From: Desulfurobacterium pacificum
GTDB lineage: Bacteria; Aquificota; Aquificia; Desulfurobacteriales; Desulfurobacteriaceae
Reading direction: 5' to 3'
NCBI RefSeq assembly: GCF_900182835.1
Contig: NZ_FXUB01000001.1
Coordinates: forward strand, 62,001 to 126,000
DNA: 64,000 nucleotides
Shown: positions 37,538-46,762 of the stretch, piece after piece
How positions within the stretch are numbered: position 1 is the first letter of the stretch
How the letters are laid out: each line of letters begins with the position of its first letter
Notes under the pieces: model-generated
Databases searched by the model: none
The model's input: only the letters and a program-made list of their open reading frames with translations
What the model was told of the DNA's origin: nothing
Position numbers and translations under genes: made by a program

Positions 37538-38608
37538 TTGGAGTTCCACATTGACAAAGCAAAAGTGCTTCCAAAAGAGAATCTACGTAGCTTTTTGGAA
37601 GGGTTGAAAGAATTAGGGAAACTCATTGCCCCTCTTAAAAAGCAGGAGAAGTTTTACTTTGACGTTGTGGATGACGTTTCAAAGGTAGAACTCTCTTACA
37701 CGAGAACGATTCTACCGCCTAAGAAGTTTCTGGTCCCTTACAGAAGAGAAAGATACACTTATGACACTGTAAACCTTAATTTTATTGCTTCGTTCAAAGC
37801 TGAACCGCAGATAATTTTTGGTATCCACTCGTGTGACCTGCACGGCATTTCCATTTTAGATTCTGTTTACCTGAAGGAAAATCCCGACCCCCGCTACCTT
37901 GAGATTCGCAAAAAAACTGTCCTCATCGGTATTTCCTGTAAGCCTGACGAGTATTGTTTCTGCATGTCAACAGGAACTGCGTTTCCAGATGGTGCTAACT
38001 GGGATTTGTTCATGACAGACATTGGCGATGATTACTTCGTCAGCATAGGAAGTCCAAAAGGTGATGAAGTTATACTTAAGATGAAAGAACTTTTCAGAGA
38101 GATTACAAAAGAAGATTTAGACCTTTATAAGAAAAGCACTTCTTTTAAGAAGAGTCTGTTTGACTTTAAGACCCTTCCAGATTTAGGCAGAATTTCTCAG
38201 GTTATTGAACTTGAATACGATTCGCCTGTCTGGGAAGAGGAAGCAGAAAGGTGTCTTGGGTGTGGAACCTGCACGAACGTCTGCCCTACGTGCTTCTGCT
38301 ATACGGAAGTTGATATTCCATCTCTTGACGGCAAAACGGTTAGCAGAATTGAGTTTACAACTTCCTGCCAGTATCCTTACTACTCTTTAGTTGCCGGTGG
38401 GCATTACTTCAAACCTTCAAGAGCAAGCAGGTTCAAGCACCGCTACTACCACAAATTTGTAGGTTATCCTTACCAGATTGAAAAGCTTGGATGTGTTGGC
38501 TGCGGACGCTGCAGCGCTGAATGTCCGGCAAAAATCAGTATGGTTGAAACAATAAAGAAGTTGAGAGGGACTGCCGATGAAGAAGAGCTTAGAAAAGTTG
38601 CTGAATAA
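37538..38608 (+). CDS. hydB: Group 3b hydrogenase beta subunit (iron-sulfur)
   Basis: Electron-transfer subunit of a cytosolic, NAD(P)-linked hydrogenase (sulfhydrogenase type, as in Pyrococcus). The 356-residue protein has an N-terminal domain typical of the family and two [4Fe-4S] clusters near the end. These are RCLGCGTCTNVCPTC at about residues 238-252 and CVGCGRCSAECP at about 318-329. It links the FAD subunit to the small subunit. The gene order beta-gamma-delta-alpha matches hydBGDA of Thermococcales. TTG 37538 has GGAGG nine bases upstream. It overlaps the gamma gene by 32 bases. Confidence 0.92.
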   Translation: MEFHIDKAKVLPKENLRSFLEGLKELGKLIAPLKKQEKFYFDVVDDVSKVELSYTRTILPPKKFLVPYRRERYTYDTVNLNFIASFKAEPQIIFGIHSCDLHGISILDSVYLKENPDPRYLEIRKKTVLIGISCKPDEYCFCMSTGTAFPDGANWDLFMTDIGDDYFVSIGSPKGDEVILKMKELFREITKEDLDLYKKSTSFKKSLFDFKTLPDLGRISQVIELEYDSPVWEEEAERCLGCGTCTNVCPTCFCYTEVDIPSLDGKTVSRIEFTTSCQYPYYSLVAGGHYFKPSRASRFKHRYYHKFVGYPYQIEKLGCVGCGRCSAECPAKISMVETIKKLRGTADEEELRKVAE

Positions 38609-39455
38609 GCCCCTACCGGGCGACCCCCTTTTACCTCACAAGGCGCTGATTACCGATATTGAAGAATTAGCGCCAGACCACAAAAGATTTTCCTTCTCTT
38701 TCCTTGATGAGAAACTGAACGAAACGTGGGAACACATACCGGGTCAGTTCGTAATGATTACCGTTCCGAAAGCCGGTGAAATTCCTATTTCTATCTGTTC
38801 TTCACCTACAAGGAAGGGAACGATAGAGTTAACCGTTCGTAAAGTTGGTAGGAAAACTGAAGTTCTGCATCAGATGAAGCCCGGTGACGTCGTAGCAATA
38901 AGAGGACCTTACGGTAACGGATTTCCTGTTGAAATTATGGAAGGACACAACGTTCTGATTATCGCCGGTGGTCTCGGTATAGCGCCTCTCCGCTCTCTAA
39001 TCTGGTACGTTTTAGACAAACGCCATCTCTACAAAGAGGTTTACATCCTCTATGGAACGAGAAACTATGAGAGCGTTCTCTACAAGGAAGAGATGAGACG
39101 TTTAAAAGAAAGACCTGACGTTAAGTGTCTTTACATCCTTGACAGGATTGAGAACGATGAAGACAGAGCCTGGACGGATAGGGAAGGGCTTTTAACGGAG
39201 CTGATTCCGGAAGTGGACTTAGACCCTGCAGATACTTACGTTGCAGTTTGTGGACCGCCGGTTGCCTACAAGTTTATAGGTAGAGAGCTGTTAAAGAACG
39301 GTTATCCTGAGAGTCAGGTGTTCGTTTCTCTTGAAAGAAAAATGGAGTGCGGTATCGGTAAATGCGGTCACTGTCAGATTGGATACAAATTTGCTTGTAT
39401 TGATGGACCAATATTCCCACTTTGGGATACAAAGAACCTACCGGAGATGCTGTGA
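38577..39455 (+). CDS. hydG: Group 3b hydrogenase gamma subunit (FAD, [2Fe-2S])
   Basis: Diaphorase subunit of 292 residues that exchanges electrons with NAD(P)H. The N-terminal ferredoxin-reductase fold has GQFVMITVPKAGEIPISI for flavin binding. The nucleotide domain has LIIAGGLGIAPLRSLI and AVCGPPVAYKF. A C-terminal Cys cluster (CGIGKCGHCQIG, then FACIDGP) holds a [2Fe-2S] centre as in dihydroorotate dehydrogenase subunit K. Together with hydB it would pass electrons between NAD(P)H and the catalytic pair. Its stop TGA shares one base with the ATG of the delta gene. Confidence 0.92.
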   Translation: MKKSLEKLLNKPLPGDPLLPHKALITDIEELAPDHKRFSFSFLDEKLNETWEHIPGQFVMITVPKAGEIPISICSSPTRKGTIELTVRKVGRKTEVLHQMKPGDVVAIRGPYGNGFPVEIMEGHNVLIIAGGLGIAPLRSLIWYVLDKRHLYKEVYILYGTRNYESVLYKEEMRRLKERPDVKCLYILDRIENDEDRAWTDREGLLTELIPEVDLDPADTYVAVCGPPVAYKFIGRELLKNGYPESQVFVSLERKMECGIGKCGHCQIGYKFACIDGPIFPLWDTKNLPEML

Positions 39456-40234
39456 TGGTGAAGATAGGAATAATGGGATTAACAGGGTGTTCTGGGTGTC
39501 AGTGTGAAATTCTTAACTGTCAGGACGCTTTAATGAAACTTCTTGGAATGGTGGAGATTTCTTACTTTCCTCTGGCGCAGGATAACAACACGTTTGAAGA
39601 ATTTGACGTTATGTTTGTTGAGGGTTCGGTAACTACGGAAGAAGATGAAGCGAAAGTTTTGAAGGCGAGAGAAAAGTCAAAAATTTTAGTGGCAATCGGT
39701 TCCTGCGCCTGTTACGGGGGAGTTCAGGCACAGAAGAACGATGAGGCATCTTTGGAAGAGATGCTAAAAACCGTTTACGGAAGAACTGAGCTGTTTTTAA
39801 AGGTTACGAAGCCCCGTGCCGTTTCAGAGGTAGTGGACGTTGACTACGAGCTACCGGGATGTCCTCTTGATAAGAGGCAGTTCGTTTACGCTGTTTCCTT
39901 CCTGCTTAACGGCGTTAAACCTTTCTTCCCGAAGATTCCTGTATGTCACGAGTGTAAACTTTCTGAAACTGAGTGTTTAACTCTTAAAGGTATTCCCTGT
40001 CAGGGACCTGTTACCTATGCCGGTTGTGGGGCGCCCTGCACCTCTCAGGGAGTTGGATGTCAGGGATGCCGCGGTAACTGTGACTTCCCCAACTTTGATG
40101 AGATGCTGAAGATTCTCAATCAGAATGGTCTTTCTGAGAAGGATGCTGTTGCTTTCCTGAAGGTGTTTAGAGGATATCAGGGGAAAGAGATTAAAGTAAA
40201 TGGTGAGGAGCGCAGAAATGAGAAAGGAGCTTAA
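39455..40234 (+). CDS. hydD: Group 3b hydrogenase delta (small) subunit
   Basis: Small catalytic-core subunit of 259 residues that carries electrons to and from the nickel site. The proximal cluster ligands are in LTGCSGCQCEIL (residues 9-20), with further ligands in GSCACYGG and ELPGCP. The C-terminal third is Cys-rich (CHECKLSETEC, CGAPCTSQGVGCQGCRGNC) and should bind two more [4Fe-4S] clusters, as usual in group 3. I start at ATG 39455, in a TGATG overlap with hydG. Its 3' end overlaps the alpha gene by 17 bases. Confidence 0.93.
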   Translation: MVKIGIMGLTGCSGCQCEILNCQDALMKLLGMVEISYFPLAQDNNTFEEFDVMFVEGSVTTEEDEAKVLKAREKSKILVAIGSCACYGGVQAQKNDEASLEEMLKTVYGRTELFLKVTKPRAVSEVVDVDYELPGCPLDKRQFVYAVSFLLNGVKPFFPKIPVCHECKLSETECLTLKGIPCQGPVTYAGCGAPCTSQGVGCQGCRGNCDFPNFDEMLKILNQNGLSEKDAVAFLKVFRGYQGKEIKVNGEERRNEKGA

Positions 40235-41519
40235 CGTAGACCACTTGACTCGTGTTGAAGGGCACGGTGCTGTTAATATAGTTTTTGAGAACGAGAGGCT
40301 GAAGGAAATCAGGCTTCGTTTTACTGAAGGTCCAAGGTTCTTTGAGTTTATTACAAGAGATAGACTCTGGACAGAAATTCCGAAGATTGTTTCAAGAATC
40401 TGTGGAATCTGTTACGTTTCTCACAGACTTGCTTCGTGTGCTGCAGTTGAGGATGCATTAGGAGTGGAAATTACGCCGGAAATAAAGGCTTTGAGGAAGC
40501 TATTGGCAGTTGGGGAGTATCTGGAGAGTCACGCGCTTCACCTTTACTTCTTGGCGCTTCCTGACTATATGGGGTATCCATCTGCCATTGCGATGGCGAA
40601 GGATTATCCTAATGTGGTGAAGAGGGGATTTTTCATCAAGGATATTGGCAATAAGATAATGAAGCTTATCGGTGGAAAGACAATTCACGGTGAGAACATT
40701 TTACCCGGTGGTTTTGAGTCTGTTCCTTCGGTTGATGATTTGAAGAGAGTGAAGGAGGATTTATACAGGGTTATTCCCGAAATCAGGGCTACCATATCTC
40801 TGTTTGAATCTTTAGAGTATCCGGAGTTTAACAACCCTCATGAGATAGAGATGTGTATAGAGGCGGAGGATTTTCTCTCTCTCGCTGATAAGGTTCACAT
40901 CTCTGATGGAACAGTCTTTACAAAGCATGAGTATGAACTTTTTGTGGAAGAAACGGTTTCGGATTACTCTACGGCTAAAAAGTCAAAGGTTAAGGGTAAG
41001 CCATTTCTCATAGGTCCTCTTGCAAGGGTTAACCATTACATAGAGAGATTTTCCATTAAATCTGACGTGGAAAATCTGAAAATTAAGTTTCCGTCTGCTA
41101 ATACGCTCCACGCTAACGTGGCTCGTGCGCTGGAAATGCTTGAAGCTGCTTTCATAGGCTTAAAAGCTGTTGATGAACTTATCTCTTCTTCACCTTTTAA
41201 TGGAAGAGTTAAAGTTACACCTAAGAAGGGAACCGGTTGTGGAGTTAAGGAAGCACCAAGGGGAACGCTCTTCCACAAGTATACTTTTGACGATACAGGT
41301 AGATGTGTTGCCGCCAACATTATTACTCCTACTGCTCAGCTTCAATCTGTTATAGAGAAAGACTTGAGAGACTTAGTAGAGAGAAGTTATGACGTTGAGG
41401 ATGAGAAGTTAAAGAAACGAGCAGAGATGTTGGTTCGTGCTTACGACCCATGAATTGCCTGTGCTGTCCACCAGTTTGGTGGAAATGAAGAAAATTTCCT
41501 GAACATAGTTAGACTCTAA
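40218..41519 (+). CDS. hydA: [NiFeSe] hydrogenase alpha (large) subunit, TGA codon 412 read as Sec
   Basis: Catalytic subunit that splits or forms H2. The N-terminal nickel motif is SRICGICYVSH (Cys62, Cys65). The second nickel motif should be DPCxxCxxH near the C-terminus. The frame reaches RAYDP, meets TGA (41451-41453), then continues as I-A-C-A-V-H-Q-F-G-G, ending at TAA 41517-41519. Reading TGA as Sec gives DP-U412-IAC415-AVH418 plus a 15-residue tail, the normal site for maturation cleavage after His. Stopping at TGA would delete both C-terminal nickel ligands. A hairpin follows at SECIS distance. Start ATG 40218 has GAGGAG seven bases upstream. Total 433 residues. Sec at this ligand is known in NiFeSe enzymes of Desulfovibrio and methanogens. 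Confidence 0.93.
40624..40632 (+). repeat. GGGGATTTT element in hydA
   Basis: Sense orientation, within KRGFF codons. It is the only copy in the soluble hydrogenase operon. Confidence 0.6.
41467..41483 (+). promoter_or_regulatory. Bacterial SECIS-like hairpin in the hydrogenase alpha gene
   Basis: CCACC (41468-41472) pairs perfectly with GGTGG (41478-41482), extended by a T-A pair. The AGTTT loop has a G in its first two positions and starts 19 bases after the TGA. The position relative to TGA nearly matches the hairpin in the peroxiredoxin gene. Confidence 0.8.
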
Positions 41520-41538: not shown

Positions 41539-41575
41539 AAAAAGCCCGGGATTTTTATCCGCCCGGGCTTTTTTA
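41539..41575 (+). terminator. Strong rho-independent terminator after the [NiFeSe] operon
   Basis: AAAAAGCCCGGG (41539-41550) pairs with CCCGGGCTTTTT (41562-41573) around an 11-base loop and is followed by a T-rich run. It separates the soluble hydrogenase operon from the membrane hydrogenase operon, and confirms that transcription passes the TGA and the added 22 codons. Confidence 0.92.
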
Positions 41576-41701: not shown

Positions 41702-43570
41702 ATGGGCTTACTTGAATCTGTTTTAGGGCTTATCGTTCTTCCCTGGATACTGGCACTGTTAGTTTTTCTTTCACCTTCTCATCGCTTGAGACAGGTTTTA
41801 ACTTTTCTTTCTTTGCCAGCTTTGACTTACATGGCTTTTGTAGTTTGGAACTCAAACGTATTACCTGTTTTTATTGAAACTCCTCACTGGCTTGAATATG
41901 CAGTAACTGTTTTTGACTACTTACTGTTGGCTTACTTCTTGTATCAGGGAATTAAATTCAGAAGTTTGTTGGTTTCTGCATTAGCTGTAGCTCAGATTTT
42001 TCTACTGACATGGGCTTTAAGTATCCTTCCACCTACCTCCACCCCTCCAATTTACGTTGACCGTTTAACGGCTTTTATGTACCTGATAGTTGCTACTGTT
42101 GGTTCAATTATCTGTATTTACGCTACCAAGTACATGGAACAGGAAGATGTGAATAGAGAAAATCGTTTTGTTGCTATACTTCTATGGTTTTTAGGTGTTA
42201 TGAGTTTTGCTGTTTCTGTTAATAATATTGAATGGTTTTTCGCTCTATTTGAAACGACAACGCTCGCTTCTTATATCCTTATCAGGTTCCGCTGGGATGA
42301 GGTTTCTATAAAAAATGCTATTCAAGCTCTCTGGATGAACCAGGTGGGTGGTATAGCTATTCTTTTAGGAATTCTTTTTGCCGTTAAAGAATACGGAGTA
42401 TATACGTTTACTGACATAATCAAACTTCATCCTACCGCTGTTTCTATGATTCCTTTAGGCTTTCTGGCTATTTCTGCTCTTGTTAAAGGTGCTCAGATGC
42501 CTTTCCATAGATGGTTGTTAGGTGCTATGGTAGCGCCTACGCCTGTTAGTGCCATACTTCATTCGGCTACAATGGTAAAAATAGCTCCCTACCTTATTTT
42601 AAGACTTTCTCCGGTAATTAAAGGAACTCTGCTTGCAAAGCTTCTTATAGTTACTACCGGTTTCGTTTTCGTTGCTGCAGGTTTGCTGGCTCTTACCCAG
42701 AACAACTTTAAGAGAATTCTCGCCTACTCCACTATTTCACTTTTAGGACTTATGATGCTAACTGCAAGTATGGGAAGTTCTATAGCTGTTTTAGCTTCTC
42801 TACTCTTAATACTTTTCCACGCTGTAGTTAAGGCTCTCCTCTTCCTTGAAGCTGGAATTATGGAAAAGCTCTTTAAAGCTAAGTACATAGAAGAGATGAG
42901 GAGACTGGTAGAGAAAGCTCCGATAACTGTTGTTTACATTTCCATCGGATTTATGAGTATGACCTTGGTTCCTTACGGTATATTTGTAGCTAAATGGTTA
43001 ACTTTGGAAGAAGCTTCAAACTTCCTTTCACACGGTGCATTTATTGCTTCAATAATCTTCATTACGATTGGTGGCGTCATACTAACGCTTCTTTACTTTA
43101 AGGTTATTGGCGTTTTAACGAGAAAACGTGGAGAGTTCTTAAGATTTCAGCTTGAAAAGTTACCTTTCCTCTATATGTTTACTACGTCGCTCTACGTTAT
43201 CTTTACAGTAGTTGCTTCTATTTTCGTTGCCAAGCTTTCTGCAAACTTTATTAACTACGCTGTAAGAGATATTACCGGTACTTTGGCAAAAATCCACGCC
43301 TCCGGTCTCACCCTTTACACTCCACTTTCCGAAATTTACGGCTGGCAGATAGTAGGTGCGTTTATTCTTCTATTGCTTGTTCCAATAATCGCTTACTTCG
43401 TTCACTTTAAGGGGACAGATAGAGTTTACGAGTATACCTGCGGTGAAAATATTGAACTGACGCTTGGAACTTACAGCTTCTTCTGTATTTCCAACCTTGA
43501 ACCTTTCATTGAAACTGCTGCTGTAGCCCTCTTTATTATGACTCTGGTATTGGGCGGAGGTCTGGTATGA
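41702..43570 (+). CDS. echA: Ech-type hydrogenase antiporter-like membrane subunit (NuoL/MrpD family)
   Basis: A 622-residue polytopic protein of the Complex I/Mrp antiporter family, expected to move H+ or Na+ when the hydrogenase turns over. The core shows the conserved FALFETTTLASYILI, then KGAQMPFHRWLLGAMVAPTPVSAILHSATMVKIAPYL with the functional Lys and His residues. About 15 hydrophobic segments are visible, plus a long final helix region. First gene of a six-gene operon. It overlaps the next gene by four bases. Confidence 0.93.
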   Translation: MGLLESVLGLIVLPWILALLVFLSPSHRLRQVLTFLSLPALTYMAFVVWNSNVLPVFIETPHWLEYAVTVFDYLLLAYFLYQGIKFRSLLVSALAVAQIFLLTWALSILPPTSTPPIYVDRLTAFMYLIVATVGSIICIYATKYMEQEDVNRENRFVAILLWFLGVMSFAVSVNNIEWFFALFETTTLASYILIRFRWDEVSIKNAIQALWMNQVGGIAILLGILFAVKEYGVYTFTDIIKLHPTAVSMIPLGFLAISALVKGAQMPFHRWLLGAMVAPTPVSAILHSATMVKIAPYLILRLSPVIKGTLLAKLLIVTTGFVFVAAGLLALTQNNFKRILAYSTISLLGLMMLTASMGSSIAVLASLLLILFHAVVKALLFLEAGIMEKLFKAKYIEEMRRLVEKAPITVVYISIGFMSMTLVPYGIFVAKWLTLEEASNFLSHGAFIASIIFITIGGVILTLLYFKVIGVLTRKRGEFLRFQLEKLPFLYMFTTSLYVIFTVVASIFVAKLSANFINYAVRDITGTLAKIHASGLTLYTPLSEIYGWQIVGAFILLLLVPIIAYFVHFKGTDRVYEYTCGENIELTLGTYSFFCISNLEPFIETAAVALFIMTLVLGGGLV

Positions 43571-44406
43571 ATTGGGAAGCCTTTATCGCTACGTTACTTG
43601 CTCCAATTGCGGGAGGTTTAATCTACGGCTTTGAGAGAATCGTAAGGGCAAGAATGCAAAACAGATTGGGACCGCCGTTACTTCAGCCTTTCTACGATTT
43701 CTTAAAGCTTATGGATAAGCGTTCTATTATCATTCATTCCTTTCACGCCTTTATGGGAATTATGTACCTGTTTGGAACGTGGTTTTCTCTGTACGTTCTC
43801 CTTTCAGGCGGCGATTTACTTATAGCAATATTTTTCCACGTTCTTTCCCTTGCGTTTTTGGTTGTTGGAGGGTTCAGCGTTCGTTCACCCTATTCAGTTG
43901 TAGGTGCTATGAGAGAACTTATCCATATGTTAGCTTATGAGCCGGTTTTCGTCATGGCAGCTGCAGGTCTTTATCTTGTCACAGGAACGTTCCAGATTTC
44001 GGAGATTCTTCACTCAAACGTTACACCCATAGTTTACCTTCCTTTAGTTTTTGTAGCTTACCTTTTAGTTTTACCTACGATTCTGAAGAAATCTCCTTTT
44101 GACATAGCTGAAGCGCATCAAGAGGTAATTGGTGGACCAGAGATAGAGTATTCTGGAAAGTTTTACGAAGCTGTTTATACGGCAAAGTGGATAGAATACA
44201 TTTACGCTTTCTTCTTCGTATTTCTCTTTACCGGTAAAAATTACCTCTTAGGTTTAATTCTTGCGGTTTTCGCTTTCTTCTTCGTGAACCTTATAGATAA
44301 CGTTACTGCGAGAACGAACTTCCGTCAGATGGTAAGGTTTCACTGGTACGTTCTTATACCTTTGGTAGTTATTAATCTCATGCTACTTGCTCTATGGAGG
44401 GTTTAA
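43567..44406 (+). CDS. echB: Ech-type hydrogenase NuoH-like membrane subunit
   Basis: Membrane anchor of 279 residues, homologous to NuoH/HyfC. The loop RARMQNRLGPPLLQPFYDFLKL and the SPFDIAEAHQEVIGGPEIEYSGKFY segment are diagnostic of this family. They form the contact between the hydrophilic arm and the ion path. About eight hydrophobic helices. It overlaps echA by four bases and ends two bases before the small-subunit start. Confidence 0.93.
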   Translation: MNWEAFIATLLAPIAGGLIYGFERIVRARMQNRLGPPLLQPFYDFLKLMDKRSIIIHSFHAFMGIMYLFGTWFSLYVLLSGGDLLIAIFFHVLSLAFLVVGGFSVRSPYSVVGAMRELIHMLAYEPVFVMAAAGLYLVTGTFQISEILHSNVTPIVYLPLVFVAYLLVLPTILKKSPFDIAEAHQEVIGGPEIEYSGKFYEAVYTAKWIEYIYAFFFVFLFTGKNYLLGLILAVFAFFFVNLIDNVTARTNFRQMVRFHWYVLIPLVVINLMLLALWRV

Positions 44407-44407
44407 A

Positions 44408-44926
44408 ATGTTGAACGTATACAGGAAAAAATCCCCCTGGATACTTCACTACAACACAGGAAGCTGTAACGGTTGTGATGTTGAGATACTTGCCTGCCTT
44501 GCACCTAAGTACGACCTTGAACGTTTTGGGATTCTTAACAGAGGAAACCCGAAGCAGTCTGATATTCTTTTAGTTACTGGTCCTGTGACAAAGAGAGCAA
44601 GAGACAGACTTATAAGACTTTACATGGAGATGCCGGAGCCGAAAGTTGTTGTTGCAGTAGGTGCGTGTGCTTGTACCGGCGGAGTGTTTAGAGGTATGTA
44701 CAACGTAGGTAACGGTGTTGATAACTTTATACCTGTTGATGTTTACGTTCCAGGTTGTGCTGCGAGACCTGAAGCAATCATAGATGGAGTGGTTAAAGCG
44801 CTGGAAATCTTAGAGAAGAAAAAGAAGAATATGGAACTTCCGGTTATCTGTAAAGACCTTGAACCTGATACAAACAGAAGAAAGTTACTTGCCGAGTGCT
44901 GCAGGAGGTGCCATGAAAATAGATGA
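44408..44926 (+). CDS. echC: Ech-type hydrogenase small subunit (NuoB-like)
   Basis: Carries the proximal [4Fe-4S] cluster next to the nickel site. The 172-residue protein shows TGSCNGCDVEILACL, VGACACTGG and YVPGCAARPEAIIDGV, the usual four Cys ligands of group 4 hydrogenases and Complex I. The start is ATG 44408 with GGAGG eight bases upstream, not an upstream codon inside echB. A GGGGATTTT element on its antisense strand (44428-44436) encodes KKSPW. The end overlaps the next gene by 14 bases. Confidence 0.93.
   Translation: MLNVYRKKSPWILHYNTGSCNGCDVEILACLAPKYDLERFGILNRGNPKQSDILLVTGPVTKRARDRLIRLYMEMPEPKVVVAVGACACTGGVFRGMYNVGNGVDNFIPVDVYVPGCAARPEAIIDGVVKALEILEKKKKNMELPVICKDLEPDTNRRKLLAECCRRCHENR
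44428..44436 (-). repeat. GGGGATTTT element in echC
   Basis: Antisense to the gene, with five G, encoding KKSPW near the small-subunit N-terminus. Confidence 0.6.
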
Positions 44927-45257
44927 AGTTAAAGTTCCTCTGAGAGATGTAAGAAGGGCAATAAAGGATTTTTACGACCCAAACGAATGGCACTTTATAA
45001 CTGTTAATGGAACTGATTTGGGCGGTAAAGTAGAGTTAAAGTGGTTCTTTGCTAAGTACGGAGAAAAAGAGGTTTTTAAAGTTTTTACTGCAGAAGCCAA
45101 CTACGATGATGAAATTCCTACAATTACTTACATAATTCCATCAGCTTGGATATCTGAGTGGGAACTTGCAGACCTTTTAGGACTTAACGTGGAAGGCGCT
45201 AAAAAGGGTCTTTTCCTTGACCCTGATAGTCCACAAGCACCTTTAAGGAGAGGTTAG
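44913..45257 (+). CDS. echD: Ech-type hydrogenase NuoC-like subunit
   Basis: A 114-residue hydrophilic subunit equivalent to NuoC or EchD. It contains EWHFITVNGTDLGGKVELKWFFAKYGE and a TYIIPSAWISEWELADLLGLNVEGAKKGLFLDPD end, matching the NuoC 30-kDa fold including its conserved terminal GLFLDPD. ATG 44913 follows GGAGG. It probably stabilises the large-small subunit pair. Two bases separate it from the large-subunit gene. Confidence 0.88.
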   Translation: MKIDEVKVPLRDVRRAIKDFYDPNEWHFITVNGTDLGGKVELKWFFAKYGEKEVFKVFTAEANYDDEIPTITYIIPSAWISEWELADLLGLNVEGAKKGLFLDPDSPQAPLRRG

Positions 45258-45259
45258 AG

Positions 45260-46345
45260 ATGGGAAATAGGATAACTATACCTTTTGGTAGTCAGCACGT
45301 AGCTTTACCAGAACCGGTAAGGTTTGTTTTCCAGACCGAAAATGAAAGAATTATTGACGTTGATGTTGACGTAGGTTACGTCCATAGAGGAATTGAAAAA
45401 GCCTGTATGACGAAATTTAAATATCTTCAAGTAGGTTACGTGGTAGCTCGCGTTTGCGGTTTATGTGCTATTTCTCACACATTAGGTTACGTTACAGCTA
45501 TTGAAAGAATGATGGGAATAGAAGTTCCCCGTAAAGCGCTCTATTTAAGGCTTTTGGTTAGCGAACTTGATAGGGTTCATTCTCACCTTTTGGCTATGGG
45601 GCATACGGCAGAAGTAGCAGGTTATGAGAACCTGTTTATGCAGACGTTTAAGCACAGAGAACTTGTCATGGAACTTCAGGAACTTGTAACGGGGAACAGG
45701 ATACAGTTTGATTACGTTACTGTAGGTGGGGTGAACAGGGAGTTAACTGCTGAAGAAGAAAAAGTTTTAAGAGAGAAGTTAAAGTTACTTGAGGAGAAAT
45801 GTAGGTGGTTAAAGGACGTTTTTGAGAATGACTATACGGTAAAGTTTCGCTGGAAAGGAACGGGAGTAATTACGCCTGAAATGGCTAAAGAGTTGAACGT
45901 AGTTGGTCCTCCTGCAAGAGCTTCAAACCTTCCGACAGATGCAAGAGCTGAATACGATTACCTTCCATTTGAAGAAGTTGGTTACAGAATGGTAGTAAGG
46001 ACTGAAGGTGATATCTATGCCAGAACTCTTGTAAGAGCTGAAGAAACTCTTAACTCTATAGAGATGCTGTGGAACATTTTAGATGGTATGCCTGAGGGTG
46101 ATATTAAGGTTGACGTTAAAGGACTACCTGAAGGAGAAAGTATTGCAAGGATAGAAGCGCCAAGAGGAGAACTTTTCTACTACGTAAAAGCGAGTAAGAA
46201 GATAATTTTAGATAGATTGAGAATTAGAGTTCCGACCTTTGCCAATATTCCGGTTATGAAAGAGTTATTTATAGGTATGGATTATGCAGATGTTCCTGCA
46301 ACTGTTATAAGTTTTGACCCTTGTCTTTCCTGTACTGCAAGGTAA
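45260..46345 (+). CDS. echE: Ech-type [NiFe] hydrogenase large subunit, no C-terminal extension
   Basis: Catalytic subunit of a group 4 membrane hydrogenase, 361 residues. Both nickel motifs are present: RVCGLCAISH near residue 65 and SFDPCLSCTAR at the C-terminus. Because both pairs of Cys are intact, it is a real hydrogenase and not a NuoD of Complex I. The protein ends two residues after the last Cys, so there is no tail for an endopeptidase to remove. The same is reported for EchE and CooH. All four ligands here are ordinary Cys codons (TGT or TGC), unlike the Sec in the neighbouring hydA. Confidence 0.94.
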   Translation: MGNRITIPFGSQHVALPEPVRFVFQTENERIIDVDVDVGYVHRGIEKACMTKFKYLQVGYVVARVCGLCAISHTLGYVTAIERMMGIEVPRKALYLRLLVSELDRVHSHLLAMGHTAEVAGYENLFMQTFKHRELVMELQELVTGNRIQFDYVTVGGVNRELTAEEEKVLREKLKLLEEKCRWLKDVFENDYTVKFRWKGTGVITPEMAKELNVVGPPARASNLPTDARAEYDYLPFEEVGYRMVVRTEGDIYARTLVRAEETLNSIEMLWNILDGMPEGDIKVDVKGLPEGESIARIEAPRGELFYYVKASKKIILDRLRIRVPTFANIPVMKELFIGMDYADVPATVISFDPCLSCTAR

Positions 46346-46357
46346 GGAGGTGAAACC

Positions 46358-46762
46358 GTGAAAGATATGATTATTGAAACGATAAAGAACCTTTTTTCTA
46401 AGCCGGCTACCGTTAAATATCCTTTTGAACCCTCTCCTACGCCTCCTAACTATAGAGGGTTGATAGTTTATAAAGAGGAGCTGTGTATTTTCTGTACCAA
46501 GTGTGAATTAGTTTGTCCTCCGGGTGCTATAAGATTTACTTATGAGGAGGACGGTTCTAAAAAGTACCACTACAACCCTTATCTGTGTATATACTGCGGT
46601 GAGTGTGTAAGGGCTTGTCCGAAGCCAGGATGCCTTACCCAGGTTGAAGACGTTGCACCGCCAGCCACCAAGGAGACAAAGCCGAATTGGGACGCGGTTG
46701 AAGTGGAGGCAGAGGAAAGCAAGAAGAGATGGTTAGCTGCAAGGAAGAAGAAAAAGTCCTAA
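46358..46762 (+). CDS. echF: Ech-type hydrogenase ferredoxin-like subunit (NuoI family)
   Basis: A 134-residue polyferredoxin with two [4Fe-4S] motifs, CIFCTKCELVCP and CIYCGECVRACPKPGC. It should pass electrons between soluble ferredoxin and echC. The C-terminal 35 residues are charged (EESKKRWLAARKKKKS). GTG 46358 is preceded by GGAGGTGA. Last gene of the operon; its 3' end overlaps a convergent small gene by 30 bases. Confidence 0.92.
   Translation: MKDMIIETIKNLFSKPATVKYPFEPSPTPPNYRGLIVYKEELCIFCTKCELVCPPGAIRFTYEEDGSKKYHYNPYLCIYCGECVRACPKPGCLTQVEDVAPPATKETKPNWDAVEVEAEESKKRWLAARKKKKS

Follow-up and report, generated by a model that had tools for sequence, protein, structure and literature searches.

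HysA, a respiratory enzyme, is a periplasmic [NiFeSe] hydrogenase of group 1 in which selenocysteine (Sec) is expected at the first cysteine of the DPCxxCxxH motif, and a bacterial SECIS element lies behind its UGA codon. During maturation of [NiFe] large subunits the precursor is cleaved after the histidine of this motif. Sec is also present in cytoplasmic enzymes of group 3 that carry UxxC, namely the methanogen enzymes of groups 3a (FruA/FrhA) and 3c (VhuU/VhuA) and the Sec-containing FrhA of Deltaproteobacteria (PMC1794560). The SECIS elements of methanogens are of the archaeal type and are located in untranslated regions, and VhuU is a separate small subunit. In HydDB, [NiFeSe] variants are noted for groups 1a, 3a and 3c; for group 3b no such variant is listed. 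A 2026 review of selenoproteomes, which names FrhA, MvhA/VhuU and related subunits, places [NiFeSe] enzymes exclusively in sulfate reducers and methanogens.

Hydrogenases of group 3b are encoded by four-subunit operons, such as HydBGDA/ShyBCDA of Pyrococcus and hydABCD of Desulfurobacteriaceae (PMC5441870). A study of the T. ammonificans genome published in eLife termed its cluster group 3b and described hydA without Sec; selenocysteine was mentioned there only within the tRNA count. In the open-licence literature we found no report connecting Sec with group 3b, sulfhydrogenase, Desulfurobacterium, Thermovibrio or Aquificales.

Here we describe a locus in a stretch of 64,000 nucleotides from Desulfurobacterium pacificum (the window). 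Judging from sequence comparisons, we consider it very probable that UGA412 of its hydA is decoded as selenocysteine, and that the gene product is the catalytic subunit of a cytoplasmic group 3b hydrogenase linked to NAD(P).

The hyd operon encodes a group 3b hydrogenase

The following features were assigned to the operon:

37538..38608, + strand: hydB-type beta subunit, 4Fe-4S, sulfhydrogenase/AsrA-like, operon gene 1 (NCBIfam)
38577..39455, + strand: hydG-type gamma subunit, FAD/NAD(P)-binding, with 2Fe-2S motif (NCBIfam, Pfam)
39422..40234, + strand: hydD-type delta (small) subunit (NCBIfam sulfhyd_HydD 198 bits, ShyD 187 bits; Pfam Oxidored_q6)
40218..41519, + strand: hydA, group 3b [NiFe] large subunit, 433 aa, residue 412 encoded by TGA
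41539..41573, + strand: intrinsic terminator of the hyd operon, a 12-bp hairpin followed by a T-run, about 20 bases past the TAA

The gene order hydB-hydG-hydD-hydA, including the FAD/NAD(P) subunit (window 37538-41519), was the same in L109, a locus of a relative, and in L112. The top families for the hydB-type subunit were sulfhyd_HydB (325 bits) and ShyB (314 bits), both below the equivalog cut-offs. The hydG-type subunit matched PRK08345 (330 bits), ShyC (273 bits) and HydG (261 bits) and contained the Pfam domains FAD_binding_6, NAD_binding_1 and DHODB_Fe-S_bind. At the end of the operon, a region of 71 nt with the terminator folds at -22.9 kcal/mol (z -4.9); a generic terminator scan missed it, because the loop exceeds the length which the scan allows.

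HydA itself reached 345 bits with ShyA and 315 bits with HydA of NCBIfam, compared with 166 bits for VhuA, 154 bits for NiFeSe_hydrog and 139 bits for FrhA; the 3a and 3c families scored at most about half as high as the 3b families. Since the equivalog cut-offs, which define two named enzymes and not the whole of group 3b, were not reached (345 against 700 bits for ShyA, 315 against 880 bits for HydA), we did not give the protein either label (Pyrococcus HydA or ShyA). Its best matches in PDB were the alpha subunits of sulfhydrogenase 1 and of the cytosolic NiFe-hydrogenase from Pyrococcus/Thermococcus (E approximately 1e-82). Through these matches to solved 3b structures the fold of HydA can be regarded as settled. 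The C-terminus corresponds to RAYDPxIxCxVH, as in the 3b operons named above. By phmmer, HydA aligned to HysA only in its N-terminal part, and the 3a and 3c [NiFeSe] enzymes are F420- or heterodisulfide-linked, unlike HydA of the window. The profile scores, the closest solved structures and the hydBGDA operon together confirmed the group 3b enzyme proposed in the original prediction, and the neighbouring subunits agreed with it.

An in-frame TGA replaces the codon of a nickel-binding cysteine

The hydA gene starts at ATG 40218, overlapping the 3' end of hydD. The frame reads RAYDP-TGA(41451-41453)-IACAVHQFGGNEENFLNIVRL-TAA(41517-41519), so the original prediction had correctly described a frame which stops at TGA after RAYDP and then resumes to TAA. 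Three features lie in this region:

41451..41453, + strand: TGA predicted to be read as Sec412, the expected terminal nickel ligand (alignment with relatives and structures; conservation in 14 genomes)
41467..41483, + strand: candidate SECIS apical stem-loop (fits the bacterial SECIS model; codons frozen across 14 Sec genes)
41472..41516, + strand: QFGGNEENFLNIVRL codons of the C-terminal tail after His418, whose removal by a maturation endopeptidase is expected

The N-terminal ligand motif RICGICYVSH, beginning at residue 60, was present in all 18 family members examined. In the alignment with group 3b relatives and solved structures, the TGA was the codon of the first cysteine in DPCxxCxxH; in sulfhydrogenase-type alpha subunits of Pyrococcus/Thermococcus this residue is the first cysteine of DPCISCSVH. 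The window hydA differs from these solved subunits, and from the other Aquificota homologues in which the codon was read (cysteine), in having TGA and a putative SECIS element.

We searched 136 Aquificota genomes and found HydA with one in-frame TGA in 14 genomes of Desulfurobacteriaceae, that of the window included. The TGA was at the motif codon in every one of these 14 genes. The 13 further proteins were 58-76% identical to HydA of the window, and mutual identity among all 14 was 58-98%. The Desulfurobacterium MAG with locus L009 also had TGA; its sequence at the site equals that of G013, and the two may be one genome. Four genomes of the genus g7 (G007, G012, G016, G019), which belongs to Desulfurobacteriaceae, had TGT or TGC at the motif codon, and TGC was found in two genomes of family f5. 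The more distant Aquificota homologues in which we read the codon had cysteine. In plasmid collections all hydrogenase matches were less than 36% identical.

Taken by itself, an opening of 21 codons behind a TGA would carry little weight. What exceeds chance is that the TGA falls exactly on an invariant cysteine, and does so in 14 genomes.

We observed that the residues beside Sec are I-A-C-A-V-H, while g7 and f5 have I-S-C-S-V-H. These two Ser-to-Ala differences go with Sec, and the hairpin gives no explanation for them (window 41454-41471 compared with the Cys genes of g7).

A candidate SECIS hairpin follows the TGA

Behind the TGA, UCCACC (41467-41472) can pair with GGUGGA (41478-41483) around the loop AGUUU (41473-41477). 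The original prediction had reported a 5-bp stem with an AGTTT loop. The hairpin and its loop are real; the stem is larger and comprises 6 bp, or 7 bp if A and U of the loop pair. The hairpin begins 13 nt 3' of the UGA, and a folding energy of -10.3 kcal/mol (z -2.2) was calculated for the 45 bases that start with the TGA.

We compared the bases after the TGA with the bacterial SECIS model, as had been suggested originally. The model has a loop of 3-9 nt with G in its first two positions, an upper stem of 4-16 bp, a spacing of 16-37 nt and an MFE of at most -7.5 kcal/mol (PMC13188914). All 14 Sec hydA genes agreed with it, having stems of 5-7 bp, a spacing of 19-20 nt and MFE of -10.3 to -15.7 kcal/mol. 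Their loops were AGUUU or, in five genes, AGUUC, where the optional A-U pair is lost; the hairpin of G009 has lost the outermost pair of the stem. We did not find a comparable hairpin in any of the four Cys hydA genes of g7 (MFE -2.4 to -6.1). When the two strands of the window were scanned with strict bacterial SECIS rules, only 3 of 2,097 TGA triplets passed, that of hydA being one of them. Rfam gave no match in the window and at the hydA site returned chance matches only, a result neutral on the hairpin. The apical stem was practically invariant across the 14 genes and no compensatory base change was seen. Because the stem hardly varies, the case for an RNA structure rests on the model fit and on frozen synonymous sites.

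Codons around the hairpin are frozen

Among the 14 Sec hydA genes there were 170 columns with a conserved residue and a choice of codons, and a single codon was used in 7 of them. Such columns made up 5 of the 10 located just after the TGA and 2 of the 160 elsewhere; these counts take related sequences as separate and are meant as a contrast within the gene, with no formal probability attached. The frozen columns after the TGA were Cys415, Val417, His418, Gln419 and Gly421, of which the last four have codons within the stem or adjoining it. The wobble position of Phe420, which faces the loop, varied among the Sec genes. In the Cys hydA genes both His codons were used at 418, and residues 419 and 422 were Met and Ala. 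As the codons are frozen in Sec genes and varied in Cys genes, selection appears to act on the RNA here, beyond the protein alone. The 5' arm of the hairpin reaches into the tail codons with its final base, and the loop and the 3' arm lie within them. Loop and 3' arm encode residues 419-422, which are expected to be cut off, and therefore such an RNA constraint would be cheap for the mature enzyme.

These data bear on the reading in which translation really ends at the TGA and HydA either functions as a protein of 411 aa or is a decayed gene. Standard annotation would indeed terminate the protein at the TGA, and the description of hydA in the T. ammonificans study has no mention of Sec. Against this, the truncated HydA would keep only two of its four cysteine ligands and would have no maturation site, the 21 downstream codons, right motif included, are conserved across the 14 genomes, and the hairpin codons are frozen. 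We regard a true stop as very improbable, and a pseudogene is excluded.

Selenocysteine machinery and other selenoproteins

The genome encodes tRNA-Sec (anticodon UCA), SelA, SelB and SelD; all four genes which the original prediction had proposed to look for (selA, selB, selC for tRNA-Sec, selD) were thus found. SelD of this genome itself has an in-frame TGA, followed by the hairpin GCCC-GGUC-GGGC. In the family, tRNA-Sec was detected in 20 of 22 genomes and Sec-type SelD in 21 of 22. We did not find tRNA-Sec in the drafts G017 and G020, although hydA has TGA there. FdhA of the D. pacificum genome is the Cys form (RICHAP). Among the family genomes searched, Sec-FdhA was present only in G001 and G003, with the Cys form in nearly all others; no FdhA above threshold was found in the g7 genomes. 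Among the selenoprotein families checked, Sec was thus confined to HydA and SelD in most of these genomes.

The inserted residue cannot be told from the sequence alone; a different amino acid might be placed at the UGA, or near-cognate readthrough might occur, and the enzyme would then be free of selenium. We find this highly unlikely in view of the tRNA-Sec (UCA), a hairpin which fits the SECIS model, the use of TGA with a GGUC-loop hairpin in SelD of the same genome and likewise in FdhA of two relatives, and the presence in relatives of cysteine, the residue that Sec replaces. A sequencing or assembly error of TGT or TGC at 41451-41453, for which one base would be enough and which the original prediction had itself raised, can be dismissed, because the TGA recurs in 14 genomes that were assembled separately, of which two comprise only one or two contigs.

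Decoding of UGA412 as Sec, which the original prediction had put forward, is therefore the reading we prefer; its position, the conservation in 14 genomes, the putative SECIS and the Sec machinery all support it. SelB bound to the hairpin would deliver Sec-tRNA, and a precursor of 433 aa would be made. Sec412 would then serve as the terminal nickel ligand alongside Cys62, Cys65 and Cys415, and a maturation endopeptidase would cut off the tail behind His418. Since a stop at UGA would leave a product of 411 aa that has only two metal-binding residues instead of four and lacks the cleavage site, the active enzyme should need selenium. Together with the FAD/NAD(P) and Fe-S subunits, the enzyme is predicted to interconvert H2 and NAD(P)H, and its role is probably the supply of NADPH for autotrophy.

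Origin and distribution of the [NiFeSe] variant

HydDB lists no [NiFeSe] variant for 3b and the review cited above limits [NiFeSe] to sulfate reducers and methanogens; therefore HydA of Desulfurobacteriaceae would be a new [NiFeSe] variant, and the original remark that Sec in a hydBGDA-type enzyme would be notable holds. The range of [NiFeSe] hydrogenases would be widened by one enzyme group (3b) and one lineage (thermophilic Aquificota). Genes of hydA with TGA are likely to be shortened by standard annotation, with loss of metal ligands. The Cys homologues of g7, 56-58% identical and from the same family, offer a ready comparison of Sec and Cys in one enzyme.

In the HydA tree, from which the motif columns had been excluded, the 14 Sec genes were on one side of a branch. 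Its support of 93/89 does not reach the threshold set by the tool itself and is not decisive; g7 and f5 had cysteine. The tree favours one gain of Sec from Cys. In the SelB tree g7 was not placed at the base of the family, and loss of Sec or gene replacement could also account for this genus. We propose tentatively, and with some doubt, that most Desulfurobacteriaceae keep Sec decoding only for the 3b hydrogenase and SelD, and that a thermostable NADP-coupled [NiFeSe] enzyme may have arisen within the family from a Cys ancestor.

All four g7 genomes have kept tRNA-Sec and Sec-type SelD despite their Cys HydA. The two SelB sequences sampled from them (loci L127 and L128) are on a very long branch (1.3, compared with 0.1-0.35 in relatives). 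Either another selenoprotein remains in this genus, or the machinery now serves little beyond SelD.

Other hydrogenases of the genome

The original prediction had also raised a separate functional large subunit; we saw no further large subunit of the 3b type in the D. pacificum genome. The other [NiFe] large subunits found there are of group 1, Frh-like, group 3-like (489 aa) and Ech-like. All of them have plain cysteine and none has an internal stop.

An Ech-like group 4 hydrogenase/complex I-related cluster lies 3' of the hyd operon (window 41702-46762), and in L109 the four hyd genes are likewise near Ech genes. The Ech-like large subunit (45260-46345) ends in FDPCLSCTAR with no removable tail, and by NCBIfam it is closer to FpoD/NuoD than to other hydrogenase groups. 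The cytoplasmic Frh-like subunit (L003) ends at the motif histidine, also without a tail. The cytoplasmic subunit of 489 aa (L004) has the motif DLCLACATH, with DLC instead of DPC.
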